From contig NZIO01000059.1 in assembly GCA_002689925.1 (NCBI GenBank), forward strand, positions 7,448-42,443: a stretch of DNA of 34,996 nt, given 5' to 3'. Under the pieces are notes generated by a model. That model saw nothing but the letters and a program-made list of their open reading frames with translations, did not search any database and was not told the DNA's origin. Positions within the stretch are counted from its first letter, which is position 1. Every line of letters begins with the position of its first letter. Shown in pieces: positions 3,968 through 34,678 of the stretch. The stretch is from Candidatus Pelagibacter sp. (GTDB taxonomy: Bacteria > Pseudomonadota > Alphaproteobacteria > Pelagibacterales > Pelagibacteraceae). The position numbers were made by a program, and so were the translations under genes.

Positions 3968-4285
3968 ATGTTTAAAAAAATATTATTTATTTTGATTTTT
4001 GTTTCTATAACAGCATGTGGAGCAAATATAGGAGAGTCAATAAAAGGGGGATTAACTGGTAAAAAAAAAAGTAATACAGATGAATTTTTAGTAAGAAAGA
4101 AAGCACCCCTAATTTTACCACCTAATTTTGATGAATTGCCTCTTCCTAAAGACCAACAAGTGAAGGAGGAAGATGATACAACTCTTAAAGATGAAATACT
4201 TTCTATCGAAAAAATAGGTAAAAAAACTCAGAGCGATGGTATTTCTAGTACCCTAGAAAATAGTATTTTAAAGAAAATTAAATGA
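3968..4285 (+). CDS. Small outer-membrane-type lipoprotein, DUF3035/BamF-like
   Basis: A 105-residue predicted lipoprotein. A short charged start and hydrophobic stretch lead to a lipobox ending at Cys17 (ITAC). After it comes a KAPLILPPNFDELP segment (about residues 44-57), which resembles the RxAPLxxPPdF signature of alphaproteobacterial DUF3035 proteins, described as BamF, an accessory lipoprotein of the outer-membrane beta-barrel assembly complex. The rest is charged and low complexity, with no recognisable catalytic motif. It sits between lspA, which would process it, and pgi, whose start overlaps its stop (ATGA). The lipoprotein call is firm; the BamF link rests on the short motif and is recalled, not searched. 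Confidence 0.8.
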   Translation: MFKKILFILIFVSITACGANIGESIKGGLTGKKKSNTDEFLVRKKAPLILPPNFDELPLPKDQQVKEEDDTTLKDEILSIEKIGKKTQSDGISSTLENSILKKIK

Positions 4286-5463
4286 TTCATAGAACCTTTC
4301 TTCATAATACACAAAAAAATATTAATAAAAGAGTAATATATGAATTTAATAAATTAAAAAAAAAAATTAAAAACAAACAAAGTCCTTTATTGGAAGTTTA
4401 TTCCAAGAATTATGATCTAAACATCCCCTACAAAAAAATAAAAAAATTTAGAAAATATGAAAATATTATAATTATTGGAATGGGGGGCTCAATTTTAGGA
4501 ATTAAATCTATTTATAGTTTTTTATCTTCAAAAATAAAAAAGAATGTTATTTTTTTTGACAATTTGAATGAACACTTTATTGATCAATTTAATAATATTA
4601 AAAATAAAAAGAAAACATGTTTTATTATAATTTCAAAATCAGGAAATACTCTAGAGACAATAATTAATTTTAATTTAGTATATAAAGATATTTTAAAAAA
4701 AAACTTTATAATTATAACTGAAAATAGCAATAGCATTCTTAGAAATTTTGCTAAAGAAAAAAATTTGATTTATATTGAACATAGGGAATATATAGGTGGA
4801 CGATTTTCAGTTTTATCAGAAGTTGGAATGACTCCAGCTTATTTGATGGGTGTAGATATTAAAAAATTTAGAAATTTGTTTACTCTTTTAGAGGGTAAAA
4901 AAATTCAAAATAAGTTGATAAAAGATGTTTCAAATATTTATCATTTTTTTAAAAAAAAACAAAGGATTAACGTAAATTTAGTTTATGACTCAGATTTAAA
5001 AGATCTGGTTTATTGGTATCAGCAATTAATTTCTGAGAGCTTAGGTAAAAGCAAAAAAGGAATATACCCTACCATTTCTACAAATCCAAAAGATCATCAT
5101 AGTTTGTACCAACTGTATTTAGATGGTCCGCGAGATAAATTTTATACTTTTTTTGCATCAAATGTAAAATCTGGCAATGGAATAAAAAGAAAAATAACAA
5201 AAAATTTTAATTTAATAAAAAATATAGATTTAAATAAAATAATAAAATCCCAATCTGAAGCATCTCAATCAGTCTTTAAGAGAAATAAAATACCTTTTAG
5301 AGCTTTTGAATTTAAAAAGAAAAATTCTGAAAATCTTGGATTAATTTTTAAATATTTTATTTTAGAAGTAATACTTTTATCTAAAATTCTTAAAGTAAAT
5401 GCTTTCAACCAACCAGCTGTTGAAAGTATCAAAGCAGAGACTAAAAAAATTTTATTAAGGTAA
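4282..5463 (+). CDS. pgi: Glucose-6-phosphate isomerase (short form)
   Basis: Interconverts glucose-6-phosphate and fructose-6-phosphate in the cytoplasm. At 393 residues it is far shorter than the roughly 550-residue E. coli enzyme but keeps the core: a GMGGS turn at 66-70, the phosphate-binding SKSGNTLET loop at 118-126, GGRFSVLS at 172-179, the putative catalytic Glu252 in SESLGK, DHHSL at 271-275, and the C-terminal NQPAVE segment. The start overlaps the upstream lipoprotein gene by four bases. The 3' end overlaps the convergent rsmD by 9 bases. The reduced length seems to come from trimmed peripheral regions rather than truncation, since both ends of the fold are present. Confidence 0.93.
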   Translation: MIHRTFLHNTQKNINKRVIYEFNKLKKKIKNKQSPLLEVYSKNYDLNIPYKKIKKFRKYENIIIIGMGGSILGIKSIYSFLSSKIKKNVIFFDNLNEHFIDQFNNIKNKKKTCFIIISKSGNTLETIINFNLVYKDILKKNFIIITENSNSILRNFAKEKNLIYIEHREYIGGRFSVLSEVGMTPAYLMGVDIKKFRNLFTLLEGKKIQNKLIKDVSNIYHFFKKKQRINVNLVYDSDLKDLVYWYQQLISESLGKSKKGIYPTISTNPKDHHSLYQLYLDGPRDKFYTFFASNVKSGNGIKRKITKNFNLIKNIDLNKIIKSQSEASQSVFKRNKIPFRAFEFKKKNSENLGLIFKYFILEVILLSKILKVNAFNQPAVESIKAETKKILLR

Positions 5464-20327: not shown

Positions 20328-20588
20328 ATGAATACTTCTTACGTACTATTATCAGGAATAATTATTTTTTTGGTGTTGTTTATTTATTTTTCTATATTTT
20401 CTGTTTCTTTAAGAATGGAAAAACAACAAGAGGATAGAGAAATTTCTATTAAGCGTAAGACTAAAGCTTGGAGCTGGAGAAATTTAATTGATGGAAAAAA
20501 TCCGAATGTAAGTTTAATGGATTTAGGGAATCATCTTTTAATAATTGGCATAGTTTTATTAGCAATCTTAATAATAAAAAATGCTTAA
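20328..20588 (+). CDS. Small membrane protein of unknown function at the head of the oxidase cluster
   Basis: An 86-residue protein I do not recognise. It has a hydrophobic N-terminal segment (about 5-28) and a hydrophobic C-terminal segment (about 68-84). They flank a charged loop (KQQEDREISIKRKTKAWSWR, around 33-52). This gives two predicted membrane spans with a roughly 40-residue loop. It starts 84 bases after the palindrome and ends 27 bases before coxB on the same strand, so it is probably co-transcribed with the oxidase. A role as an accessory subunit or assembly factor is inference from position only. No clear ribosome site is seen. Confidence 0.62.
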   Translation: MNTSYVLLSGIIIFLVLFIYFSIFSVSLRMEKQQEDREISIKRKTKAWSWRNLIDGKNPNVSLMDLGNHLLIIGIVLLAILIIKNA

Positions 20589-20615: not shown

Positions 20616-21452
20616 ATGTTTGTAGCAATAATTCTTATTTTGATAACTGTTGGCTCAGTAGTGTTTCATTTTTGGTCGCCTTGGTGGTGGACACCTATTG
20701 CATCCAATTGGGGTGGAATGGATGATACAATTATTTTGACATTCTGGATCACAGGAGCAGTGTTTGTTGCTATATGTTTATTTTTAGCATATTGCGTTTG
20801 GCGATATAGATATAGAGAAGATAGAGTAGCAGAATATAAGCCAGAAGATAAAAAAATAGAATTTAGATTAACTGCTTTAACAACACTAGGAATTATAGCG
20901 CTATTAGCACCAGGACTTTTAGTTTGGAAAAACTACGTAAGTGTTCCTGAAAATGCATTAAAAATTGAAGTAGTTGCCTACCAATGGGGATGGAAATACA
21001 GACTACCAGGTGAAGATGGGGTTTTAGGCAAAACAAGTATAAAATTTATAAATGACGATAATCCATATGGATTAATTTTAGATGATCCAAATGGAAAAGA
21101 TGATCTTATCGTAGATAGTGATGAACTTCATTTACAGATAGATGTACCTGTAAAATTTGAATTAAGAGCGCTAGATGTGCTTCACAATTTTTATGTTCCA
21201 CAGTTTAGAGGAAAAATGGACATGGTTCCTGGTACGGTGACTTTTTATTGGTTAACCCCTACTAGAGAAGGGGATTTTGAAGTGCTATGTGCTGAGTTTT
21301 GTGGAACAGGGCATTATGCTATGAGGGGGAGAGTTATTGTAGATGATGAGGAAAAATATAATATTTGGTTAGCTGAGCAAGTTACATTTGAGAATATGCT
21401 TGCTAAAAACCAAGAACAAAAAACAGAAATAAAATTAGTAAAAAAAAATTAA
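20616..21452 (+). CDS. coxB: Cytochrome c oxidase subunit II (CuA subunit)
   Basis: Carries the CuA centre that accepts electrons from cytochrome c in the periplasm. It is 278 residues long: two membrane helices (about 36-60 and 85-104), then the cupredoxin domain. The CuA ligands are complete: His190, Cys225, Glu227 (backbone), Cys229, His233 and Met236 (CAEFCGTGHYAM). The aromatic YQWGW patch at 122-126 marks the electron entry site. The protein stops shortly after the CuA domain, so no cytochrome c domain is fused. The N-terminal SPWWWTPIASNWG stretch resembles CoxM-type subunit II proteins. Short gaps link it to the small membrane protein upstream and coxA downstream. Confidence 0.95.
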   Translation: MFVAIILILITVGSVVFHFWSPWWWTPIASNWGGMDDTIILTFWITGAVFVAICLFLAYCVWRYRYREDRVAEYKPEDKKIEFRLTALTTLGIIALLAPGLLVWKNYVSVPENALKIEVVAYQWGWKYRLPGEDGVLGKTSIKFINDDNPYGLILDDPNGKDDLIVDSDELHLQIDVPVKFELRALDVLHNFYVPQFRGKMDMVPGTVTFYWLTPTREGDFEVLCAEFCGTGHYAMRGRVIVDDEEKYNIWLAEQVTFENMLAKNQEQKTEIKLVKKN

Positions 21453-21466: not shown

Positions 21467-23305
21467 ATGTCGGATGATAATGATTATAAAATAGAAACAA
21501 AGTCAGATACAGTAGCAGATAGTTCAAATGATGGATATACATCAACAGCAGAAGTTGACCAACTTCCTCCAGCAGAATTACCAGATCAAGAACTCTACCA
21601 TTCTCATAGTTGGTGGACTACTTATGTGTTTTCACAAGATGCCAAATATATTGGTGTTCAATATGCTTTGACAGCAGTAGGAACAGGTTTATTAGGTTTG
21701 GTTCTTTCATGGTTAATGAGAATTCAGCTAGCTTTTCCAGGCTTGGGTCTTTTAGATCCTGCCTCTTATTATCAGTTTGTAACAATGCATGGAATGATAA
21801 TGGTAGTTTATCTTTTAACAGCTTTATTTTTAGGGGGTTTTGGAAATTACTTAATACCATTAATGTGTGGATCAAGAGATATGGCATTCCCTTATGTAAA
21901 CATGCTCAGTTATTGGATGTTTGTTGTTGCTGTACTCGTATTACTTTCAAGTTTTTTTGTACCAGGAGGTCCAACTGGAGCAGGATGGACGTTATATCCT
22001 CCTCAAGCAATTACATCTGGAACACCAGGAAGCAACCTAGGAATTGTACTAATGTTAATATCTTTAATATTGTTCGTGGCAGGCTTTACGATGGGAGGCT
22101 TAAATTACATAATTACTGTCTTGCAGCTTCGTGCACGTGGAATGACTTTAATGAGATTACCTTTAACAATCTGGGGAATTTTTACTGCAACTGTTTTAGC
22201 GCTATTAGCTTTCCCAGCGCTTTTAGTTGGCTGCTTAATGATGACTTTAGATAATATGTTGGGAACAAGTTTCTTTATGCCTGCAATGATTTCGATGGGA
22301 GAAACGCTGTCTTATGATGGAGGAAGCCCAATTTTATTTCAACATCTTTTTTGGTTTTTTGGTCATCCAGAAGTTTATATTGTAGCATTACCTGCTTTTG
22401 GAATAGTTTCAGATTTAATATCTATTCACTCACGAAAAAATATTTTTGGTTATAGAATGATGGTATGGGCTATAGTTGGTATAGGAGCTTTAAGCTTTTT
22501 TGTTTGGGCCCACCACATGTATGTCAGTGGAATGAACCCTTGGTTTGGATTCTTTTTTGCTACCACAACTTTAATTATTGCCGTACCTACAGCAATTAAA
22601 GTTTATAATTGGGTTTTAACAATTTGGAGAGGAAATGTTCATTTAACTTTACCAATGTTATTTTCTTTAGCTTTTATAGTAACTTTTTTAAACGGAGGAT
22701 TGACTGGTCTATTTTTAGGAAATGTAACAGTTGATGTTCCTCTGTCAGATACTTATTTCGTTGTAGCTCATTTTCATATGGTAATGGGAATTGCACCACT
22801 TCTAGTAGTATTTGGAGCAATATACCACTGGTATCCTTTGATAACTGGAAGAATGTTAGATGAAACTATGGGTAAAATACATTTTTGGATAACTTTTGTT
22901 GGATCTTATGCAATTTATTTTCCAATGCATTACCAAGGATTTATTGGTGTTCCAAGAAGATATTTTGAAATATATGATAGTCCATATATAGAGACGTCTA
23001 CAGTAAGTTTAAATATTTTTATAACTATTGCAGCTTTAGTTGTTGGTGCTGCACAGTTATTATTTTTATATAATCTTATCACCAGCACAAAATTGGGTAA
23101 AAAGTCAGAAAGAAATCCTTGGAAAGCAAACTCTTTGGAGTGGCTTACTCCAAAGATGCCACCTGAGCATGGTAATTGGGGAGAAGAGCTTCCAAAAGTA
23201 TATCGTTGGCCTTATGATTACAGTGTGCCTGGTGCAGACAAAGATTATATTACCCAAACCACACCTCCAAGCCAGGTAATGACAGCAAAAGTTGAAAAAA
23301 CATGA
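21467..23305 (+). CDS. coxA: Cytochrome c oxidase subunit I
   Basis: Catalytic heme-copper subunit that reduces oxygen and pumps protons, with about twelve membrane helices in 612 residues. Ligands: low-spin heme His108 and His437, CuB His300, His349 and His350, high-spin heme His435. The His300-Tyr304 pair in GHPEVY would form the cross-link. Glu302, the D-channel entry Asp138, Asn127 and Asn145, and the K-channel Thr375 and Lys378 are all present, so it is an A1-type pumping enzyme. An acidic N-terminal extension of about 45 residues precedes the first helix. As I remember the families, it is closest to the CoxN type, not the usual alphaproteobacterial CtaD. It overlaps the next gene by four bases. 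Confidence 0.96.
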   Translation: MSDDNDYKIETKSDTVADSSNDGYTSTAEVDQLPPAELPDQELYHSHSWWTTYVFSQDAKYIGVQYALTAVGTGLLGLVLSWLMRIQLAFPGLGLLDPASYYQFVTMHGMIMVVYLLTALFLGGFGNYLIPLMCGSRDMAFPYVNMLSYWMFVVAVLVLLSSFFVPGGPTGAGWTLYPPQAITSGTPGSNLGIVLMLISLILFVAGFTMGGLNYIITVLQLRARGMTLMRLPLTIWGIFTATVLALLAFPALLVGCLMMTLDNMLGTSFFMPAMISMGETLSYDGGSPILFQHLFWFFGHPEVYIVALPAFGIVSDLISIHSRKNIFGYRMMVWAIVGIGALSFFVWAHHMYVSGMNPWFGFFFATTTLIIAVPTAIKVYNWVLTIWRGNVHLTLPMLFSLAFIVTFLNGGLTGLFLGNVTVDVPLSDTYFVVAHFHMVMGIAPLLVVFGAIYHWYPLITGRMLDETMGKIHFWITFVGSYAIYFPMHYQGFIGVPRRYFEIYDSPYIETSTVSLNIFITIAALVVGAAQLLFLYNLITSTKLGKKSERNPWKANSLEWLTPKMPPEHGNWGEELPKVYRWPYDYSVPGADKDYITQTTPPSQVMTAKVEKT

Positions 23306-23934
23306 AAAAAAAAGAAAGTATATTTCAACTACTAACACAAAAACCTTGGGAAAATGATCAGTCTCAAAAAGATAATGTTCACGAGGGTAAAACTTTAGAT
23401 CTAACAAAATACAAATTAGGTTTGAGAACATTAATGGTAGTAAGTTCTGTTATCTTTTCTTTATTCATTGTCACTTATTCTGACAGAATGTTAGTGCACG
23501 ATTGGAGAAATATGCCAGAGCCTCTACTTCTTTGGGTTAATACATTTATTTTAATTTTTAGTAGTATAGCTTTTTATTTTACTCAAAAATCATTCAAAAA
23601 AAATGAAAATGAAAAAACAAAGAATGGTTTATATTTAATAGGTTTTTTGGCATATTCTTTTTTAATAGGTCAATTGTTGGTTTGGTATCAACTTATGAAT
23701 TCAGGGTATTATGCTACCACAAATGTAGCTAACGCCTTTTTTTATCTTTTCACTACCCTCCATGGCCTCCATTTAATTGGCGGTCTGTATTTTTGGGGCA
23801 ACACAACATCTAAATTTTTAAAAGGAAATTATAGAATTTCTAAGATGCAACATATGTTAGAACTTTGTGGAATTTACTGGCACTTTCTTCTTTTTGTTTG
23901 GCTTGTATTATTTGGTTTAATGTTGTTTACATAA
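23302..23934 (+). CDS. Cytochrome c oxidase subunit III-like protein, first copy
   Basis: A 210-residue membrane protein with about five hydrophobic segments after a charged N-terminal tail of some 38 residues. Subunit III signatures are TTLHGLHLIGG (around 151-161) and YWHFLLFVWLVLF near the C-terminus. The Asp usual in WHFVDxVW is replaced here by Leu. A GQLLVWYQLMNSG stretch matches the helix that normally carries the GQ-x3-W motif. The start overlaps coxA (ATGA). It differs strongly from the second subunit III that follows, so the two are paralogues and not a split gene. The pair resembles CoxO/CoxP. Confidence 0.87.
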   Translation: MKKKESIFQLLTQKPWENDQSQKDNVHEGKTLDLTKYKLGLRTLMVVSSVIFSLFIVTYSDRMLVHDWRNMPEPLLLWVNTFILIFSSIAFYFTQKSFKKNENEKTKNGLYLIGFLAYSFLIGQLLVWYQLMNSGYYATTNVANAFFYLFTTLHGLHLIGGLYFWGNTTSKFLKGNYRISKMQHMLELCGIYWHFLLFVWLVLFGLMLFT

Positions 23935-23949: not shown

Positions 23950-24654
23950 ATGGAAAAATTAGCTTTAGATAAACTACCAAAAGGTTGGAAAAGTGTTTCT
24001 AGTGATTTAGGGTCTGATCAAACTGCATTCAAAGGTGTTCAATGGGGGAAAGGCATGATGTGGCTCTTTCTTTTAAGTGATACATTTATTTTTAGTTGTT
24101 TCCTGATTTCCTATATGAAAGGTAGAGGGTCTACGGTTATTGATTGGCCAAATCCAAGTGAGGTTTTTGCTCTTCATGTAGGACATGTGCCTGTGCCTTT
24201 ATTATTAATAGCGATCATGACATTTGTTCTTATAACAAGCAGTGGAACTATGGCGTTAGCTGTAAAGTATGGATACGAAAAAAATAGAAAATTGTGTGGA
24301 TACCTTATATTAGCTACTGCTATAGGTGGCCTTACATTTGTTGGTATGCAAGCATTTGAGTGGACTAAATTAATTTCTGAAGGTGTTAGACCCTGGGAAA
24401 ACCCTTTTGGAGCACCACAATTTGGATCTTACTTTTTTATGATTACTGGCTTTCATGGCACACACGTTTCTATTGGGGTTATTTTTTTATTTATTTATGC
24501 AAGAAAAGTTTTAAAAGGAGACTTTGACACTGGAAAAAAAGGCTTTTTTACTTCTATGAAATCAGATTATGTTGCAATAGAGATTCTAGGTCTTTATTGG
24601 CATTTTGTAGACTTAGTATGGGTTTTTATTTTTGCATTTTTTTATTTATGGTAA
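23950..24654 (+). CDS. Cytochrome c oxidase subunit III, second copy
   Basis: A 234-residue membrane protein with about five spans. It has the canonical subunit III blocks: FEWTKLISEG (around 146-155), TGFHGTHVSIG (about 168-178) and LYWHFVDLVWVFIFAFFYLW at the C-terminus, where the conserved Asp is kept. This makes it the more typical of the two subunit III proteins here. Subunit III stabilises the catalytic subunit and supports proton uptake. It is followed after 8 bases by subunit IV. Confidence 0.92.
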   Translation: MEKLALDKLPKGWKSVSSDLGSDQTAFKGVQWGKGMMWLFLLSDTFIFSCFLISYMKGRGSTVIDWPNPSEVFALHVGHVPVPLLLIAIMTFVLITSSGTMALAVKYGYEKNRKLCGYLILATAIGGLTFVGMQAFEWTKLISEGVRPWENPFGAPQFGSYFFMITGFHGTHVSIGVIFLFIYARKVLKGDFDTGKKGFFTSMKSDYVAIEILGLYWHFVDLVWVFIFAFFYLW

Positions 24655-24662
24655 ACTAAATT

Positions 24663-24995
24663 ATGGATGAAATTAAAAAAGAAAATAACGAAACACATAA
24701 AATAGGAATTTATCTTTGGATTTGGGGTTTATTATTCGTCCTTAGTTTTTTTTCTTATATGGTCGACTGGTATCAATTTCAGGGAATGCTTAGATGGTCA
24801 TTAATATTATTTTTTATGTTTTTAAAAGCAGGATTAATAATGGCTTTTTTTATGCATTTGTTTTGGGAGCGCTATACTTTAGTTAATGTACTTTTGTGGC
24901 CAATGACGGCTATCGCTTGTTTTGTTATATTAATGGTTGCAGAGGCTGAATATACAGTATTTACGAGATTTGTTTTTTTTGTATTAGGCAGCTAA
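24663..24995 (+). CDS. Cytochrome c oxidase subunit IV, prokaryotic type
   Basis: A 110-residue protein with three predicted membrane helices (about 15-35, 43-68 and 75-95). The middle span carries the LKAGLIMAFFMHL segment typical of bacterial subunit IV, a small structural subunit. Its position directly after subunit III fits. It is the last structural subunit before the assembly genes, 25 bases ahead of ctaB. Confidence 0.87.
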   Translation: MDEIKKENNETHKIGIYLWIWGLLFVLSFFSYMVDWYQFQGMLRWSLILFFMFLKAGLIMAFFMHLFWERYTLVNVLLWPMTAIACFVILMVAEAEYTVFTRFVFFVLGS

Positions 24996-25020: not shown

Positions 25021-25932
25021 ATGCATTCTTCAGAGAATAAATTAACTTCTATCAAGATAAATTATATCAATTTTATAAAAGCTTTATTCAATTTAATGAA
25101 GCCAAGAGTAATGTCTTTGGTAATTTTTACTTGTGTCGTGGGTTTGGTGATTGCTCCAAAACAAATTGATCTAATTCCTTCATTAATTGCAATATTTTTT
25201 GTAGCTTTAGGCTCTGGAGCTGCAGGAGCTTTAAATATGTGGTACGAGGCTGATCTAGACTCTCTAATGACCAGAACATGTCTTAGACCTATTCCAACTG
25301 GGAAAGTAACAAGAAATCAAGCTTTGCTTTTTGGAGTTTCATGTTCAATTATTTCAGTAGTAGCTTTATATTTTTTTTCTAATTTAGTAGCAGCGAGTGT
25401 ACTAGCACTTACTATTCTTTTTTATGTTTTTATATATACAATTTGGTTAAAAAGAAAAACACCACAAAATATTGTTATTGGCGGTGCGGCTGGTGCGCTA
25501 CCACCAATAATAGGGTGGGCGATTGCAATGAATAATATTAGTTTAGAGCCAATAATATTATTTCTTATTATATTTATTTGGACTCCTTCTCATTTTTGGG
25601 CACTAAGTCTGTATAAAAGTGACGATTATCGTAAAGCAAATATACCGATGCTACCAATAGTTTCTGGTGTATTAAAAACGAAATATAATATTTTTATATA
25701 CGCGCTTCTTTTATATCCGATTTCTTTAGCACCCTATTTTTTAAATTATTCAGGTACTGTATATTTTTTAGTTTCATTGATATCGAGTTCTTATTATTTG
25801 TTTATATGCTTTAAGTTAATGAGAGAAAAAAATTCATCTAAAGAAAAAAAATTGTCACAGCATATTTTTGGATATTCAATATTTTACTTGTTTATAATAT
25901 TTACAGCTATTTTAGTGGACGCCTTAATATAA
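25021..25932 (+). CDS. ctaB: Protoheme IX farnesyltransferase (heme O synthase)
   Basis: UbiA-family membrane enzyme that farnesylates protoheme to heme O, the precursor of heme A for the oxidase. It is 303 residues long with about eight or nine spans. The first Asp-rich motif is NMWYEADLD (72-80), followed by MTRTCLRPIPTGK. The second conserved region is WTPSHFWALSLYKSDDYRKA. Its place between oxidase structural genes and ctaG is typical. No heme A synthase gene (ctaA) is in the window. Confidence 0.96.
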   Translation: MHSSENKLTSIKINYINFIKALFNLMKPRVMSLVIFTCVVGLVIAPKQIDLIPSLIAIFFVALGSGAAGALNMWYEADLDSLMTRTCLRPIPTGKVTRNQALLFGVSCSIISVVALYFFSNLVAASVLALTILFYVFIYTIWLKRKTPQNIVIGGAAGALPPIIGWAIAMNNISLEPIILFLIIFIWTPSHFWALSLYKSDDYRKANIPMLPIVSGVLKTKYNIFIYALLLYPISLAPYFLNYSGTVYFLVSLISSSYYLFICFKLMREKNSSKEKKLSQHIFGYSIFYLFIIFTAILVDALI

Positions 25933-25952: not shown

Positions 25953-26441
25953 ATGAAAAAAAAAATTAAACCAGCTATTTTTTATATAGTATGTTTTATT
26001 TTCCTTCTTTTAATTTGCTATCTATTTTTTTTTAATAATAATTTAAAAGAAACATCAAAAAAACAATTTATAGAACTAGATTTAATTACTAGTGTTCACC
26101 CTGAATTACCTTGGAAATTTGATGCTGAGAAAAGCAAAATTAACCTAGAAATAGGAAAAGTAACAACAATAAATTATAATGTTAGGAACCTTTCTGGCAA
26201 AACTAACAGTGGAGCTGCTGTGTTTAACTATTATCCCAAGTATTTAGGTAAATATTTTAATAAAATAAACTGTTTTTGTTATGATTTACAAACTTTAAAG
26301 CCTGGAGAAGAAAAGCAGTATTCTCTCGTTTTATTTATTGATCCAAAAGCGACAAAAGAGATCATAGCAAAAAAACCAAAAAAAGTTATACTTCAATTTA
26401 CTTTTTTCGGCAAAAAAGAATTTAAAAAAATAAAGAATTAA
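25953..26441 (+). CDS. ctaG: Cytochrome c oxidase assembly protein CtaG/Cox11 (shortened)
   Basis: Periplasmic copper chaperone that delivers copper to the CuB site of subunit I. It is 162 residues long, with one N-terminal membrane anchor (about 8-27) and a beta-sandwich domain. The copper-binding CFC motif is intact (Cys107 and Cys109 in NCFCYDLQTLKPGE), as are the HPELPWKFDAE and FNYYPKYLGKYFNKI segments. The usual stretch after the anchor with a further conserved Cys (the PLYxLFC-TGFGG region of typical Cox11) is missing. The gene is therefore a shortened variant, not truncated at either end. Confidence 0.92.
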   Translation: MKKKIKPAIFYIVCFIFLLLICYLFFFNNNLKETSKKQFIELDLITSVHPELPWKFDAEKSKINLEIGKVTTINYNVRNLSGKTNSGAAVFNYYPKYLGKYFNKINCFCYDLQTLKPGEEKQYSLVLFIDPKATKEIIAKKPKKVILQFTFFGKKEFKKIKN

Positions 26442-26627
26442 ATGGAAATTTTAACACCAGAAATAAATAATTTTATCACTATGTGCGCTGTATGCGTATC
26501 TGATAGAGGTGGAGCACAAATAGCAATTTTAGTAATTGTGGGATCTCTTTCAGTTCTTGGTCTTGCTAATTGGGCGTGGAACAAATATTTAAAAAAAAAT
26601 AATCAAGAGTTTACAATAAAAAAATAG
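26442..26627 (+). CDS. Small CxxC membrane protein of the oxidase cluster
   Basis: A 61-residue protein of unknown function. It has a CAVC motif (Cys15 and Cys18), then one hydrophobic span (about 26-45) and a basic tail (KYLKKNN). The ATG follows the ctaG stop with no gap (TAAATG), so translation is probably coupled. I recall similar small CxxC-plus-one-helix proteins beside oxidase operons in other phyla, but could not search. A role in copper handling or oxidase assembly is inference from the motif and position. Confidence 0.62.
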   Translation: MEILTPEINNFITMCAVCVSDRGGAQIAILVIVGSLSVLGLANWAWNKYLKKNNQEFTIKK

Positions 26628-26690: not shown

Positions 26691-28076
26691 ATGAAATATA
26701 TTAGTACTAGAAATAACTATAAAAAATATAATTTTAGAGAAGTTTTTATAAGAGGGTTAGCACCAGATGGAGGATTGTATATTCCTTTAAATATACCAAA
26801 GTATTCTTCTACAAAACTTAAAAAAATGAGCAATTTTTCTTACAAAGAGATCGCAGAAGAAATATTGTCAAAATATTGTAATTCAGCCTTTAATAAACAA
26901 GAAATTAAAGAAATAGTTAAAAAGGCATACTCAAAGTTTAGAGTAAAAAATGTTGTGCGTATTAATAAATTTAAAGATGTAGAGCTACTTGAATTGTATC
27001 ATGGACCTACTTTAGCTTTTAAAGATATAGCGATGCAGATAATAGGAAATATGTATGATAAAATTTTAAAAAGGACGGATGAACAAATCAATATAATAGT
27101 GGCAACTTCAGGAGATACAGGTTCAGCAGCAATTAATGCAATAAAAGGAAAAAAGAAATTAAATATTTTTGTATTACATCCTTATAAACGAATTTCTGAA
27201 GTTCAAAGAAAATTTATGACAACAACAAAAAATAAAAATGTTTTTAATTTAGCAATTAAAGGTAACTTTGATAATTGTCAAACATTAGTTAAAAATCTTT
27301 TTCTTGATAAATCTTTTAATAAAAAAATAAATATGTCTGGAGTGAATTCAATTAATTGGGCAAGAATAGTAGCTCAGGTAGTTTATTATTTTTTTTGTTA
27401 TTTTAAGAAAAGTAAAAAAGAAAAAAAAATTAACTTTTCAGTACCGACAGGAAATTTTGGTGATATTTTTGCAGGGTTTATTGCTAAAAAAATGGGCTTG
27501 CCAATAAATAAACTTATAATTGCTACAAACAAAAATGATATATTAAAAAGAGTTATGAGGTCAGGAATTTATAAACCAAAAAAAACTCATAAAACTATTT
27601 CACCCAGTATGGATATCCAAGTGGCAAGTAATTTTGAACGATTATTGTTTTATTTAAATTCTGGTGATTCAAAAAGAACACTGCAATTGATGCTTGATCT
27701 TAAAAATAAAAAACAATTTAAATTAAATAAAAAACAAATGAAAGCTATAGATAAAGATTTTCTTTCTGAAAGTTTGTCAGAAGCAGATACAAAAAAAGTT
27801 ATAAAAAACTTTTATAAAAAATTTAAGGTATTTATAGATCCACATACAGCTATTGGAATAGGTGTTAAAGATAAATTAAATATTTCAGGAAAAAATATTG
27901 TTCTAGCCACTGCCCATGCTAGTAAATTTCCTTTGTCGGTAAAAAAAGCAACTGGAAAAAAACCCCACCTTCCTAAAAATATTAATAGTATTATGAGGTT
28001 AAAAGAAAACTATAAAATTTTTCCTAATAACATTAATAAAGTAAAAAAATATATTTTAAATATTGTTGAAAGTTAG
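26691..28076 (+). CDS. threonine synthase thrC: Threonine synthase
   Basis: PLP enzyme converting O-phosphohomoserine to threonine. It is 461 residues long, matching the long class of bacterial enzymes. The PLP lysine is Lys111 (GPTLAFKD), and the phosphate-binding ATSGDTGSAA block is about 25 residues further on. SVPTGNFGDIFAG and TAHASKFP are also family segments. It lies 63 bases after the small CxxC gene and may have its own promoter. Its end overlaps the convergent rnhA by 4 bases. Homoserine kinase (thrB) is encoded on the opposite strand nearby. Confidence 0.96.
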   Translation: MKYISTRNNYKKYNFREVFIRGLAPDGGLYIPLNIPKYSSTKLKKMSNFSYKEIAEEILSKYCNSAFNKQEIKEIVKKAYSKFRVKNVVRINKFKDVELLELYHGPTLAFKDIAMQIIGNMYDKILKRTDEQINIIVATSGDTGSAAINAIKGKKKLNIFVLHPYKRISEVQRKFMTTTKNKNVFNLAIKGNFDNCQTLVKNLFLDKSFNKKINMSGVNSINWARIVAQVVYYFFCYFKKSKKEKKINFSVPTGNFGDIFAGFIAKKMGLPINKLIIATNKNDILKRVMRSGIYKPKKTHKTISPSMDIQVASNFERLLFYLNSGDSKRTLQLMLDLKNKKQFKLNKKQMKAIDKDFLSESLSEADTKKVIKNFYKKFKVFIDPHTAIGIGVKDKLNISGKNIVLATAHASKFPLSVKKATGKKPHLPKNINSIMRLKENYKIFPNNINKVKKYILNIVES

Positions 28077-29474: not shown

Positions 29475-30419
29475 TTATTGTAATTTATTTGGTATTTTAA
29501 AAAAAACTTTTTCTTTAACAACTTCAACTTCATTTACAGTTACAGTAGATATTTCTTTAATTGATTCTATTAATTTATTAACAAGTATTTCTGGAGCAGA
29601 GGCTCCCGAAGAAATTCCAATATTTAAAGAGCTTTTAATTTTTTTAATTGGTATATCTTCCTGTGAAGAAATTAAAAAAGATTCTTGGCAGCCAGATTTT
29701 TTTGCTACCTCAACTAATCTAACTGAATTAGAAGAATTTTTACTCCCAACAACAAAGAATATGTCACATTTTGGTGCTATTTTTTTTACTGCAGTTTGTC
29801 TGTTTGTTGTGGCATAACATATATCATTTTTTATCGGCTCTCTTATAGATGGAAATTTTTCTTTAAGTATTTTTATGATTTTTTTAGCATCATCAACAGA
29901 AAGTGTTGTTTGAGTAATATAAGCATAGTTTTTATTAATATTTGAGCGCTTATATTTTAATGCTTCTTCATCATTTTGAATTAAATCAATTGCCCCAGGA
30001 GGTAACTGACCCATAGTTCCAACGACTTCAGGGTGGTTTGCATGTCCTATTAGTAAAATTTTAAAGCCCTGTTCATATAAATTTTCAGCTTCACGATGAA
30101 CCTTAGTAACTAGTGGACAAGTAGCATCTATAAATTCTATTTGTTTCTTATTTGCATTATATGGAACAGATTTAGGAACTCCATGTGCAGAAAATATAAC
30201 AGGTCTGCTTTTATCTTTTATTTCATCCAATTCTTCAACAAACTTAGCTCCTAACTTTTTTAAATTTTCAACCACATATTTGTTATGAACTATTTCATGA
30301 CGAACATAAACGGGAGCTCCATATTTCTTAAGACTTTTTTTTACTATTTCAATTGCGCGTTCAACACCAGCACAAAAACCTCTTGGAGCAGCTAAATAAA
30401 TATTAATTTTATTTTTCAT
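29475..30419 (-). CDS. ispH: 4-hydroxy-3-methylbut-2-enyl diphosphate reductase
   Basis: Fe-S enzyme for the last step of the MEP pathway, making IPP and DMAPP. From the chosen ATG it has 314 residues. The three cluster cysteines lie in PRGFCAG, DATCPLV and CYATTNRQ (Cys16, 101 and 201 from this start). A TTG three codons upstream also opens the frame, but the ATG is preferred. The start lies inside the 3' end of blh (11-base overlap), which links precursor supply to the retinal genes. Confidence 0.96.
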   Translation of the reverse strand: MKNKINIYLAAPRGFCAGVERAIEIVKKSLKKYGAPVYVRHEIVHNKYVVENLKKLGAKFVEELDEIKDKSRPVIFSAHGVPKSVPYNANKKQIEFIDATCPLVTKVHREAENLYEQGFKILLIGHANHPEVVGTMGQLPPGAIDLIQNDEEALKYKRSNINKNYAYITQTTLSVDDAKKIIKILKEKFPSIREPIKNDICYATTNRQTAVKKIAPKCDIFFVVGSKNSSNSVRLVEVAKKSGCQESFLISSQEDIPIKKIKSSLNIGISSGASAPEILVNKLIESIKEISTVTVNEVEVVKEKVFFKIPNKLQ

Positions 30420-31311
30420 TTTTTTCAATTAAATATTCAAGCAATATATGCGGAAATGTTAGTGACGCCAATCCAATAAATATAACTTTGTATATGGATT
30501 CATTTAATTCGTAGTAATTATTTAAAAAATATAAAGAAATAAGATAAAGCAACGCAGTAATTACTGATAAAGGAAGAGCTTTTTTAAGAAATAAAAGAAA
30601 ACCTTTTTGGATATTTTTGTTTAGTTGAAAGACTAATGATAAAGAGTGTCTTATTGAATGTAAAAAGCAAAAATATATTGTAAATGCCACAAGTGGGTTT
30701 AAAAAATAATTTAAAATTAGTATTGAAAAAAAATCCATTAGTAAAATGAACTTTATTGCTATTTTTTTTTTAAAAAATAAAAATAAACAAGAAAAAAAAC
30801 TTAAGAATAATAAAATATATAAAATTATATTTTCAATAAAAATGATTCCTGAAATATTAAAGTTTAAAGATTGAAATATTAATATAGTTTCAATTTTATG
30901 AAAAAGTAATGGAGAGACTATCACCACCGAACCTTTTAAAAAATATAAAATTTCATCATAAATTTTTTTTTCTTTTTTTATAAAACTCATATCTTCTTTT
31001 CCAAAATGATACGAAGAAACTATTATAAAGATGAATAAAAGTGTTTTTGGGAATAAAATCCAAACTAGTATTATAAATAAGCTAATTAGTGAATATCCAA
31101 TGTAAAATATGGACATAGATTTTATATCTAGAATTTTCAAAAGTTTTTTACCTTTAATGTTATCTAAAGACCCATGAGAAATACCTAGAGTTAATATTAA
31201 AAATAAACATAGTATTATAAAATTGTTGTTTCTTACAAAAGCAAAAGCAGAAGAAAAAATACAAATATTAAAAAAAATTAACGAATGATAGAAATTTATT
31301 TTTTTTATCAT
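30409..31311 (-). CDS. blh: Beta-carotene 15,15'-dioxygenase, Brp/Blh family
   Basis: Membrane dioxygenase that cleaves beta-carotene into two retinal molecules for a rhodopsin. It is 300 residues long and very hydrophobic. The likely iron-binding histidines lie in GISHGSLD (His46), SSYHFGKED (His102) and LHSIRHSL (His218 and His222), as in the characterised marine Blh. A FPHILLE segment closes the family pattern. It lies one base after crtY and overlaps ispH. No rhodopsin gene is in the window. Confidence 0.93.
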   Translation of the reverse strand: MIKKINFYHSLIFFNICIFSSAFAFVRNNNFIILCLFLILTLGISHGSLDNIKGKKLLKILDIKSMSIFYIGYSLISLFIILVWILFPKTLLFIFIIVSSYHFGKEDMSFIKKEKKIYDEILYFLKGSVVIVSPLLFHKIETILIFQSLNFNISGIIFIENIILYILLFLSFFSCLFLFFKKKIAIKFILLMDFFSILILNYFLNPLVAFTIYFCFLHSIRHSLSLVFQLNKNIQKGFLLFLKKALPLSVITALLYLISLYFLNNYYELNESIYKVIFIGLASLTFPHILLEYLIEKNEK

Positions 31312-31312
31312 C

Positions 31313-32383
31313 TTATTTTTTCCAGATTGCTTTTATAAAAATTAATTTGGGCATTTTTAAAATTATTGTTAAATCTTCTAAAATATTACTTTTATTAGAT
31401 AAAAATTTTATAATATTGTGTGCTGAACCAGAAAACATTTTAAAGAATATAGCAGGCATTTTTTGCGGATAGTTTCTTAACACTTTTAAAAATAATTTAT
31501 CCAGTATTTGATATTTTTTACCAATTTTAAAAATTTTTAAATTTCTAATATTTTCAATATTTTCTCTTATGTATTTACTTTGGTCCTGAATATTTAAAAA
31601 AGTATAACCCGTACTTAATCGTGTCATACCACCAGCAGTTCCTATATTTATTATATTTTTTTCTCTAATATTTAAAGGATAGAATAATGGTATGGATCCT
31701 TCTTCACTATAGTTTATTTTATAGTTTTTTAGTCTTAGTCGATTATTAATATAATTTTTAATTTGAATATCATAATCTTTTAAAGAGTTATCATCATTTT
31801 TAGATATCCAGGTAGTTTCAACTAACGCTTTATTTTTTGTGCTAGGTAGAAAGTAAAAGAAATGAACATTATTTTTTTGATCACAATCAAAATCCATTAA
31901 ACAAATAACATTTTCATTAAAAAAATTATCTTGTGTTTCAATTTCAACGCCATAAAAATGTTGCCAAAGGTTATTTCTATTTTCTTTAATAGATGGAACA
32001 CTATTAAAAATAAATGAGTTACTTGAGTCTAAGTTTTTTGTGTCTTTATAAAAAAAAATATTTTTATTTTTTTTTAATCTATTAATTATTTTTTTATAAA
32101 ATAGCCCACTATCTATACTTTGATAGGGAAAATTATCACATTTAATAATTTTAGAATCAGAAGGTATTTTTATAGAAAATTCTTTCCAATTTTTTTTAAC
32201 ACAATCTTCGAAATTATGAGGGCTAACTTTCCAAAAAGACCATGTTTTATCTCGTTTGTATTCTATTCTTGGTTCTACTATGGCTAATGTTTTATTATCT
32301 AGTTTTTTATGAATCTCTAACTCATATGCTAATGATAGGCCAGAACAGCCACCACCTATAATTATATAGTCAAATTCTTTCAT
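31313..32383 (-). CDS. crtY: Lycopene beta-cyclase
   Basis: FAD-dependent enzyme converting lycopene to beta-carotene. It is 356 residues long. The dinucleotide-binding GGGCSG is at 10-15, and a WSFW segment and the GTAGGMTRLSTGYTF segment match CrtY of proteobacteria. Its start overlaps the end of crtB by 14 bases, and blh begins 1 base after its stop, so all are one transcript. Confidence 0.94.
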   Translation of the reverse strand: MKEFDYIIIGGGCSGLSLAYELEIHKKLDNKTLAIVEPRIEYKRDKTWSFWKVSPHNFEDCVKKNWKEFSIKIPSDSKIIKCDNFPYQSIDSGLFYKKIINRLKKNKNIFFYKDTKNLDSSNSFIFNSVPSIKENRNNLWQHFYGVEIETQDNFFNENVICLMDFDCDQKNNVHFFYFLPSTKNKALVETTWISKNDDNSLKDYDIQIKNYINNRLRLKNYKINYSEEGSIPLFYPLNIREKNIINIGTAGGMTRLSTGYTFLNIQDQSKYIRENIENIRNLKIFKIGKKYQILDKLFLKVLRNYPQKMPAIFFKMFSGSAHNIIKFLSNKSNILEDLTIILKMPKLIFIKAIWKK

Positions 32384-33218
32384 GCAAATTTATTACCTCA
32401 TTAATTATTTGATGATCAGCCTTTTTATTATGTACACTTGATTTCATAACTAAAAGTATGAAAAAATCAAAAATAGATAGTATTGTTTGAAAAAATTTTC
32501 CCAAATTAGATACATATATCTTTCCAGATTTATTATAATTTTCAATATTTCTTTTTTTTAAAATATTATTTCCAATTTCTCGATAAACTCTTCTCGCAAC
32601 TAAAATGGCAAACCTATAATTAATTGGAATATCACCAATTGATGAAAATGAGCTTTTATAGAAGTCATCAGCAATTATTAAAGTATTTTTTATAGATTCA
32701 AAATTAGATTCTATATATTTTCTATTTTTCATCTCATCTTCAACCACATCCCTAGCAATATTTGTTAATTGCATAGCAATTCCTAAATCTATTGCTGCTT
32801 TAAGGGAAGTCTCTTTTTTCACATTTAGTATTTTTGCCATCATTAATCCCACTGTACCTGCAACTCTATATGAATAAATTAACAACTCTTTTTTTGAGTT
32901 AATTTTTACCTCTTTTTTTAAATCAGATTCAATTCCATCAAATAAATCGTAAATAATTTTTTTTGATATCTTAAAATCATCTATTAATTTATATATATTT
33001 TTAATAATTTGATTAGTAAAATTTTTATTTGTAAAATTATCTTTGAACTCTTTAAATTGTTTTATTCTTATAATTAATTCTAATTCTTGGTCAGCAATAT
33101 TATCCATTGTTCTACAAAAATCATAAAGGATAGAACAACTCTGATATGTTTTTTTTGGTAAAAAAAACCCTGCCCATTTAAAAGATTTTGCATATTTCGA
33201 TAAATAGTCTTTAGACAT
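32370..33218 (-). CDS. crtB: Phytoene synthase
   Basis: Condenses two GGPP molecules to phytoene. It is 282 residues long. The two Asp-rich motifs that bind the diphosphates through magnesium are DNIAD (39-43) and DVVED (157-161), the latter in LTNIARDVVED. The ATG shares one base with the crtI stop (TAATG), which implies coupled translation. The GGPP synthase (crtE) that supplies its substrate is not in the window. Confidence 0.95.
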   Translation of the reverse strand: MSKDYLSKYAKSFKWAGFFLPKKTYQSCSILYDFCRTMDNIADQELELIIRIKQFKEFKDNFTNKNFTNQIIKNIYKLIDDFKISKKIIYDLFDGIESDLKKEVKINSKKELLIYSYRVAGTVGLMMAKILNVKKETSLKAAIDLGIAMQLTNIARDVVEDEMKNRKYIESNFESIKNTLIIADDFYKSSFSSIGDIPINYRFAILVARRVYREIGNNILKKRNIENYNKSGKIYVSNLGKFFQTILSIFDFFILLVMKSSVHNKKADHQIINEVINLHERI

Positions 33219-34678
33219 TATAAAATTTTATCTAGAACCTTTGCTGAAGATAATACTCCAGGTACACCTGCCCCTGGGTGAGTTCCTGCACCAACAAAAT
33301 AAAGCCCATCACATATTTCTGATTTATTGTGAAATCTAAAATAAGCTGATTGACTAAATTTAGGTTGAATAGAAAATCCTGATCCATATTTAGTATTTAA
33401 TTCTTTTTCAAAATAATCTGGTGTTAAGTAAAAATCTTCAATAATATTATTTCGAAGATTAGGTAAAAGATTTTGTTCCATTTTATCTATCACTAGATTT
33501 TTTATTTTTTCTCCTTCTATAGACCAATCAATTTTGGATTGGTTATTTGGCACTGGAACTAAAACATAAAAACAATCATGTTTTTCTGGAGCCATAGCTT
33601 TGTCTGTAGCAGTAGGTCGGTGGAGGTAATAACTAATATCATTATTTAATTTTTTATTATTAAAAATATCATTTAAGTGTTCTTTATATTTTTTACCAAA
33701 TTTAATAGTATGGTGTTCTACACCTTCATATACTTTTTTAGTTCCAAAATAATAAACAAATAAACCCATTGAATATTCCATACGTTTTTTTTTCCATTTA
33801 AACAGATAGTTAAACTTAGGATTATTTAATAGTTTTTCATAAACAGATGGTGGATCAGCATTACAAATAACATTATCAGCATAAATCTCTTTTTTATTGT
33901 TAGTCCTAACTCCTTGAATTTTATTATTATTTAAAATTATTTTTGTTACTTCTGTGCCTTTAATTATTTCAATTTTTTCTTCTATCATTAATCTTTCGAG
34001 TCCTTCAATAATTTTTCCAGTACCTCCCATTGAATAGTGAATACCCCATTTTTTCTCTAAATATAAAATAAGTCCATAAATAGAAGTGGTTGTAAAAGGG
34101 TTGCCACCAACCAGCAGTGGATGCATACTTAAAATACGTCTTAATTTTTCATTTTTCACATATGAAGAAACAAATGAATAAAGAGATTTATAGCTTTTAA
34201 GATTTAATAATGAGGGTAACTGTTTTAGCATAAAGAAAGGTTTATTAAATGGAACAGAAGAAAGCTCTGTAAAACCTTTGTCGAAAATTTTTTTTGTAAA
34301 TTTTACAAGATTTTCATAGCCTTTAACGTCATTTTTATTAATTTTTTCAATTTGATTTTTCATCAAATTTTCATCACCAGAATAATTAAAGTACATTCCA
34401 TCTTCAAAAATAAATCTGTACCAAATTTTAAGTGGAGTCATTTCTATATAATCTTTAGGATTTTTATTAAATAGTTCAAAAAGTTCATTAATTAAGTAGG
34501 GTGCTGTAATTACTGTTGGACCTCCATCGAAAGTAAAACCATTTTTTTTAAATACTCTAGCTCTTCCACCAAGATCTTGATGTTTTTCAATTAATGTTAC
34601 ATTGTGATTTTTTGCTCGGAGTCTTAATGCTGCAGCCAAACCTCCAAATCCAGAACCAATTACTATAGATTTTTTCAT
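33218..34678 (-). CDS. crtI: Phytoene desaturase (lycopene-forming)
   Basis: FAD-dependent CrtI-type desaturase that converts phytoene to lycopene. It is 486 residues long. The N-terminal dinucleotide motif is GSGFGG (8-13) with the LIEKHQDLGGRA segment, then FDGGPTVIT. The C-terminus carries the flavin-contacting GLYFVGAGTHPGAGVPGV segment. It is the first gene of the minus-strand carotenoid unit, so the promoter should lie in the 109-base AT-rich gap before atpF. Confidence 0.96.
   Translation of the reverse strand: MKKSIVIGSGFGGLAAALRLRAKNHNVTLIEKHQDLGGRARVFKKNGFTFDGGPTVITAPYLINELFELFNKNPKDYIEMTPLKIWYRFIFEDGMYFNYSGDENLMKNQIEKINKNDVKGYENLVKFTKKIFDKGFTELSSVPFNKPFFMLKQLPSLLNLKSYKSLYSFVSSYVKNEKLRRILSMHPLLVGGNPFTTTSIYGLILYLEKKWGIHYSMGGTGKIIEGLERLMIEEKIEIIKGTEVTKIILNNNKIQGVRTNNKKEIYADNVICNADPPSVYEKLLNNPKFNYLFKWKKKRMEYSMGLFVYYFGTKKVYEGVEHHTIKFGKKYKEHLNDIFNNKKLNNDISYYLHRPTATDKAMAPEKHDCFYVLVPVPNNQSKIDWSIEGEKIKNLVIDKMEQNLLPNLRNNIIEDFYLTPDYFEKELNTKYGSGFSIQPKFSQSAYFRFHNKSEICDGLYFVGAGTHPGAGVPGVLSSAKVLDKIL

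Follow-up and report, generated by a model that had tools for sequence, protein, structure and literature searches.

The DNA analysed here, hereafter the window, is a stretch of 34,996 nucleotides from a Candidatus Pelagibacter sp. assembly of 1.6 Mb in 73 contigs. Its + strand carries, in order, RsmE, TM86, COX2, COX1, COX3a, COX3b, COX4, CtaB, Cox11, a small protein that we call CXXC61, and ThrC, followed on the - strand by RnhA, ThrB and IspH. The features of the oxidase operon are as follows.

20328..20588, + strand: TM86, an 86-aa two-span protein with no family above cut-off, recurrent in these operons
20616..21452, + strand: COX2 with CuA motif CAEFC (PF00116, motif count)
21467..23305, + strand: COX1, the catalytic subunit (motifs HPEVY, HHM and HFHM; trees)
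23302..23934, + strand: COX3a, the second COX3-like subunit and marker of the oxidase type (PF00510)
23950..24654, + strand: COX3b (PF00510)
24663..24995, + strand: COX4, prokaryotic subunit IV (PF03626)
25021..25932, + strand: ctaB, UbiA family (PF01040), heme O synthase by context
25953..26441, + strand: ctaG/cox11, short form keeping CFC (PF04442, E 1.5e-32, from profile position 28)
26442..26627, + strand: CXXC61, a 61-aa CxxC single-span protein (translated ORF with ATG start, stop within the coordinates)
26484..26495, + strand: CxxC codons of CXXC61, C15-A16-V17-C18 (from the translation; intact in 49/52 genomes)
26520..26579, + strand: predicted membrane span of CXXC61, covering approximately residues 27-46, with a Lys-rich tail behind it (from charge bias and visual inspection of hydrophobicity)
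26691..28076, + strand: thrC, the downstream neighbour and end of a shared chromosomal slot (PF14821/PF00291)

Pfam was used to verify example genes of RsmE, RnhA, SURF1, Sco and PCuAC, which served as BLAST references for labelling the other loci; ThrB, IspH, CrtY, CrtB, CrtI, Brp/Blh and CoxF are presumptive labels given by reading or recall. TM86 recurs in a-III operons of both types defined below, in varying position (in the COX4/CtaB interval in type B), and may be an undescribed subunit. A Brp/Blh-CrtY-CrtB-CrtI cluster follows IspH in several but not all genomes (L054, L055, L049 and positions 30409-34678 of the window), and genes that read as ATP synthase-like stand in its place where it is missing.

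The ATG of CXXC61 directly abuts the TAA stop of Cox11 (TAAATG; junction ...AATTAAATGG...). An earlier note on this DNA had described a 61-residue single-span frame starting on the Cox11 stop, with CAVC before one helix, and this description holds. C18 lies about 8 residues from the hydrophobic stretch. Mean charge is -1.0 on the N side of the span and +4.3 on the C side, the C side being the more positive in 50/51 sequences, and this bias suggests an N-out topology. Structure prediction of CXXC61 alone returned one helix at residues 6-60 (mean pLDDT 78.5, pTM 0.40), an uninformative model. Membership of a known family was ruled out, as Pfam and NCBIfam yielded sub-threshold hits only. Nothing below E 1 was found among PDB sequences; aa3 subunit IV is among the weakest matches, with a non-significant E of 2.3-2.4. 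A c-type cytochrome was dismissed because CXXCH is missing (the motif reads CAVCV, and residue 19 is I, V, A or F in 51/51), as was a lipoprotein, lipobox and signal peptide being absent by eye. A non-exhaustive search of open-licence papers returned none on a small CxxC protein of this operon.

CXXC61 was found in 12/41 genomes of a first set (its own and 11 of 40 relatives). Both Cys were invariant across the first 13 sequences, and Cox11 adjoined the homologues in the loci read from these first relatives. A match in G026 was discarded as chance (E 0.257, within another 280-codon frame), and a search of genome contigs with CXXC61 gave one locus, L014. The family search returned 57/397 genomes at E <= 0.01, of which 52 were kept; the five weakest (E 0.003-0.009) were dropped as short partial matches to the helix region. 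CXXC61 is thus present in 52/397 family genomes, mostly incomplete MAGs whose absences weigh only as counts. SAR11 copies range from 50 to 64 residues. The sequences of all 52 were read. The earlier note had asked whether the two Cys are invariant, and they nearly are: the CxxC is intact in 49/52, both Cys are replaced in G141 and G145 (LHIG), and the copy of G076 (L217, about 4236-4417) has an in-frame TAA right after the CxxC codons plus one. This stop codon is either a true nonsense mutation or an artefact of assembly. Aligned rows (n = 51) show invariant G24, A28 and K48, with N43 kept in 49, and the Cys codons show synonymous TGT/TGC use. Median dN/dS was 0.35 over the 637/1275 pairs with pS between 0.05 and 0.65. 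CXXC61 is a real gene under purifying selection. Neither outcome that would have refuted the earlier note, a lack of homologues in related genomes or orthologues without either Cys, was seen, apart from the Cys-less pair G141 and G145.

Outside the family, a class sample of 385 genomes and a phylum sample of 299 genomes gave no convincing homologue. In the class sample 23 other genomes had matches at E 0.0025-0.1, and ten of these loci, from nine genomes, looked like chance when read (the G523 locus, antisense to CtaB, among them); in the phylum sample four other genomes matched at E 0.0014-0.0067, of which the G518 locus alone was read and appeared chance-like. Viral contigs, searched with a single CXXC61 sequence and with the alignment, gave nothing.

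The host oxidase has the gene order, the two COX3-like subunits, the COX4, and the CuA and CuB ligands of the coxMNOP or subtype a-III oxidases, and was named from the gene content that we take coxMNOP to have (COX2-COX1-COX3-COX3-COX4). The CuA motif was counted in 25/26 COX2 sequences, the exception (L198) reading CVEYCG, outside an overly strict pattern, and the COX1 motifs in 42/43, the exception being from G044. Subtype a-III is placed in Pelagibacterales near oxygen minimum zones in a passage of PMC8879329, citing Ruiz-Perez et al. 2021. No small CxxC single-span ORF like CXXC61 was seen at 16 a-III-like loci of other alphaproteobacterial genomes, some of them cut by contig ends.

COX3a of this oxidase type was found in 91/397 genomes. 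Type A accounts for 53, of which 52 score E <= 1e-80 and the other, G097, is truncated by a contig end; type B accounts for 38, from genera g4 and g5, at E values of about 1e-42 to 1e-60; G044, with a further B-type operon on its contig C15, was counted as A. CXXC61 occurs in 51/53 type-A genomes, and in the two misses, G111 and G151, the contig breaks off no more than about 1.4 kb beyond COX3a. The co-occurrence with this CoxA type, which the earlier note had proposed to test, is supported. The sole carrier without COX3a is G010, whose contig ends at CtaB, and CXXC61 is in none of the 343 other genomes, all 38 of type B included. Its association is with the a-III oxidase and not with ctaG. 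In the dual-oxidase genomes G055 and G043, CXXC61 lies directly upstream of the a-III COX2, apart from Cox11, and in four carriers Cox11 is undetectable; the coupling to ctaG proposed in the earlier note is not supported, and a CtaG-bound factor was rejected on the G055/G043 arrangement.

The next gene after CXXC61 is thrC in 46/51. Relatives without CXXC61 whose loci were read have a classical aa3 operon in the same slot (COX2-COX1-CtaB-full Cox11-COX3-SURF1), beside ThrC and RnhA and mostly with RsmE nearby. Type-A and type-B oxidases replace this operon, or stand beside it in G055, G043 and G309. The a-III and aa3 COX1 are about 40% identical, and in the loci read the COX1 of type B is 73-76% identical to that of the window. 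In COX1 trees, each of which samples the 52 carriers in part, every SAR11 a-III copy included falls into a single clade that is separate from 11-12 a-III copies drawn from other alphaproteobacterial genomes (99/97); the a-III assignment is by gene order and by these alphaproteobacterial loci, with which the SAR11 copies share a wider COX1 clade. G055 and G043 group with type B (94/93). A single clade of all carriers was borderline rejected only (p-AU 0.051, in a tree that excluded the long or partial rows A_G044, o_G439, A_G107 and A_G065 and the aa3 copies), so one gain with loss in type B, or other histories, are possible. G141 and G145 have close CXXC61 copies and positions in the COX1 tree that are not neighbouring; the COX1 of both retains the CuB ligands.

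Several loci of this family deserve mention in their own right. Tandem or multiple a-III operons occur at L180 (G044:C5) and at L179, L201 and L202 (G057), and G044, probably also G057, look like mixed or multi-copy assemblies with several a-III operons. One COX1 copy of G044 has a long branch and is without HFHM, which suggests a decaying or altered oxidase. On a short contig of G010 (L056, G010:C69), a-III COX1 and COX2 point away from a cupredoxin gene and a Cox11 without the membrane-proximal Cys, with a ThrC-like frame next and CXXC61 absent; this is probably a foreign contig within the assembly. Type-B operons L195-L200 share a conserved 63-aa two-span - strand ORF in the COX3a/COX2 interval, with no family above cut-off.

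The Cox11 of the window is shortened, as had been noted: PF04442 aligns to it from profile position 28 onward, and it has lost the membrane-proximal LFC[RKQ]VTG (FCxVTG) segment. In human COX11 the Cu centre is described, in a section of PMC9232578, as oriented near C121, a membrane-proximal Cys. Among the 52 carriers, Cox11 lacks this segment in 46, is full length in two (G055, G043) and escapes detection in four (G044, G057, G141, G145). CFC is kept in 45/46 of the short forms, the exception (G077) being a fragment. In the first 41 genomes Cox11 is short in 12/12 carriers and full length in 28/28 others with Cox11; in G019 neither CXXC61 nor Cox11 was found. Cox11 was found in 3/38 type-B genomes: it is short in G237 and G169, and full length in the dual-oxidase genome G309. 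SURF1 was not found in the window operon. A PF02104 match confirms SURF1 in G055 and in the aa3 operon of G016; in G043 the SURF1 label comes from BLAST.

Sco was sought in 35 genomes, comprising 21 of the 52 carriers, 8 of the 38 type-B genomes and 6 aa3-only genomes. It was found in 2/21 carriers (G044, G057), in 8/8 of type B and in 1/6 aa3-only genomes, a contrast between types A and B that reflects few independent events. Sco adjoins COX3a in the eight type-B loci read (L195-L200, G309, G142), and that of G057 and one of the two of G044 lie away from the operon, after a PCuAC gene. None was found in G141 and G145 (74% and 73% complete). In the tested genomes, the a-III oxidase is accompanied by either Sco or CXXC61, and seldom by both.

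These comparisons argue that CXXC61 belongs to the oxidase's own equipment, with thiols tied to a copper or thiol handling that Sco can also provide; judged from gene content and sequence, a dedicated role in one oxidase type, as helper or small subunit, is probable. The metal or thiol chemistry suggested in the earlier note is plausible, and the near-exclusion of Sco lends it indirect support. Our preferred reading, to which we give a probability of roughly 45%, is that of a dedicated accessory of the coxMNOP/subtype a-III-like oxidase, most likely an assembly factor that carries a dithiol on a membrane anchor. What we infer here is its topology, its chemistry (copper or thiol), its partner and the order of events. 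The single helix would hold CXXC61 next to the oxidase or to the complex that assembles it, exposing the N-terminus and the CxxC on the periplasmic surface. An N-out orientation, as the charges suggest, would place the CxxC in the compartment in which Cox11 and CuA receive their metal, and Cox11 and Sco are described as membrane-anchored there in parts of two reviews (PMC9145763, PMC6696091). The thiols might serve as Cu(I) carriers, or might maintain the Cys pair of Cox11 (CFC) or COX2 (CuA) in a reduced state for metallation. In most Sco-less carriers CXXC61 would share the metallation work with Cox11; once Sco had been acquired, Cox11, and sometimes the CxxC too, could become dispensable. 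In favour of an assembly factor are the oxidase linkage, the upstream position in G055 and G043, the purifying selection, the near-exclusion of Sco, the loss of both Cys only in G141 and G145, where Cox11 is also undetected, and the lack of the membrane-proximal Cys segment in all short Cox11s beside CXXC61 (n = 46). Against it, 5/6 of the aa3-only relatives tested are Sco-less and manage without CXXC61.

The main rival is a small structural subunit, similar in size to bacterial subunit IV, with its helix packed on COX1 or COX3 and its CxxC stabilising the periplasmic side through a disulfide or a small metal site; a CxxC at the membrane surface could indeed be structural. We consider this a real possibility, at less than even chances. 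The strict linkage and upstream placement fit it too, the insignificant match to aa3 subunit IV points the same way, and helix and Lys-rich tail are kept despite loss of the Cys (G141, G145) or of Cox11 (G044, G057). In G141 and G145 the remainder of CXXC61 persists after loss of its Cys; the helix must therefore do something independent of them, which weighs against the assembly-factor reading and keeps the structural rival strong. This rival sits poorly with the type-B oxidases, which are without CXXC61 although their COX1 is 73-76% identical to that of the window in the loci read, and the near-exclusion of Sco has no obvious structural reason. G044 and G057 also weigh against the assembly-factor reading: they have Sco, no detected Cox11 and an intact CxxC, so the need for the thiols is confined neither to Cox11 nor to genomes lacking Sco. 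The same two genomes count against CXXC61 standing in functionally for Sco at the CuA site of COX2 alone, an improbable reading despite the distribution of Sco between type B and carriers and the like architecture of one span with a predicted periplasmic Cys pair. CXXC61 is without the thioredoxin fold and has CxxC, not CxxxC, and the Sco-less aa3-only genomes have no CXXC61 either.

The earlier note had suggested an oxidase assembly factor that possibly compensates for the shortened Cox11 or a missing SURF1; for Cox11 this would mean replacing in trans the membrane-proximal Cys that it has lost. Compensation for Cox11 agrees with the missing segment in 46/46 short Cox11s and with the clean split in the first 41 genomes. 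CXXC61 coexists with full Cox11 and SURF1 in G055 and G043, and short Cox11 occurs without CXXC61 in G237 and G169, so compensation fails as the origin; the four carriers without detectable Cox11 also speak against it. As an origin it is largely refuted, and as a function we hold it very improbable. Compensation may still explain why Cox11 lost its membrane-proximal Cys after the cassette arrived, an order of events that we infer. A SURF1 substitute is ruled out by the joint presence of SURF1 and CXXC61 in G055 and G043. A bolder form of the assembly-factor reading, tentative and on balance unlikely, is that the same oxidase in the same SAR11 slot comes in two versions, one with Sco and one in which a 50-64 residue single-helix dithiol protein, a previously undescribed minimal metallochaperone, would take over part of the copper and thiol handling, the arrival of Sco being followed by decay of Cox11 and then of the CxxC.

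SAR11 is among the most abundant marine bacterial groups. If CXXC61 metallates or reduces the oxidase, the enzyme would have an assembly factor of very small size, and the natural set of genomes with Sco, with Cox11, and with an intact or lost CxxC would make the division of labour among copper chaperones testable.

Among known systems, CXXC61 resembles Sco/SenC (PF02630) in its single-span anchor, its Cys pair (predicted to be periplasmic in CXXC61) and its linkage to oxidase genes. Sco differs in its thioredoxin fold, CxxxC and distal His, as described in a section of PMC9145763, whereas CXXC61 has 61 residues, a CxxC and no Pfam hit; with PF02630 unmatched and CxxC in place of CxxxC, it does not belong to Sco/SenC. 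With Cox11/CtaG (PF04442) it shares a single span, membrane-facing Cys and neighbouring genes, but it has no Ig-like domain, no CFC and no sequence match, PF04442 included, and is therefore not a member; Cox11 is anchored by an N-terminal span, whereas CXXC61 is predicted to be N-out. The HMA copper-binding domain has MxCxxC in a ferredoxin-like fold, and was set aside because CXXC61 reads M-C-x-x-C and has no domain match. CtaM of Bacillota is a small membrane protein, like CXXC61 by description alone. It is needed for heme A oxidases and lacks metal-domain homology to Sco or Cox11, according to the relevant part of a review. The host oxidase itself shares COX2-COX1-COX3-COX3-COX4 with the coxMNOP oxidase of Bradyrhizobium, or subtype a-III.
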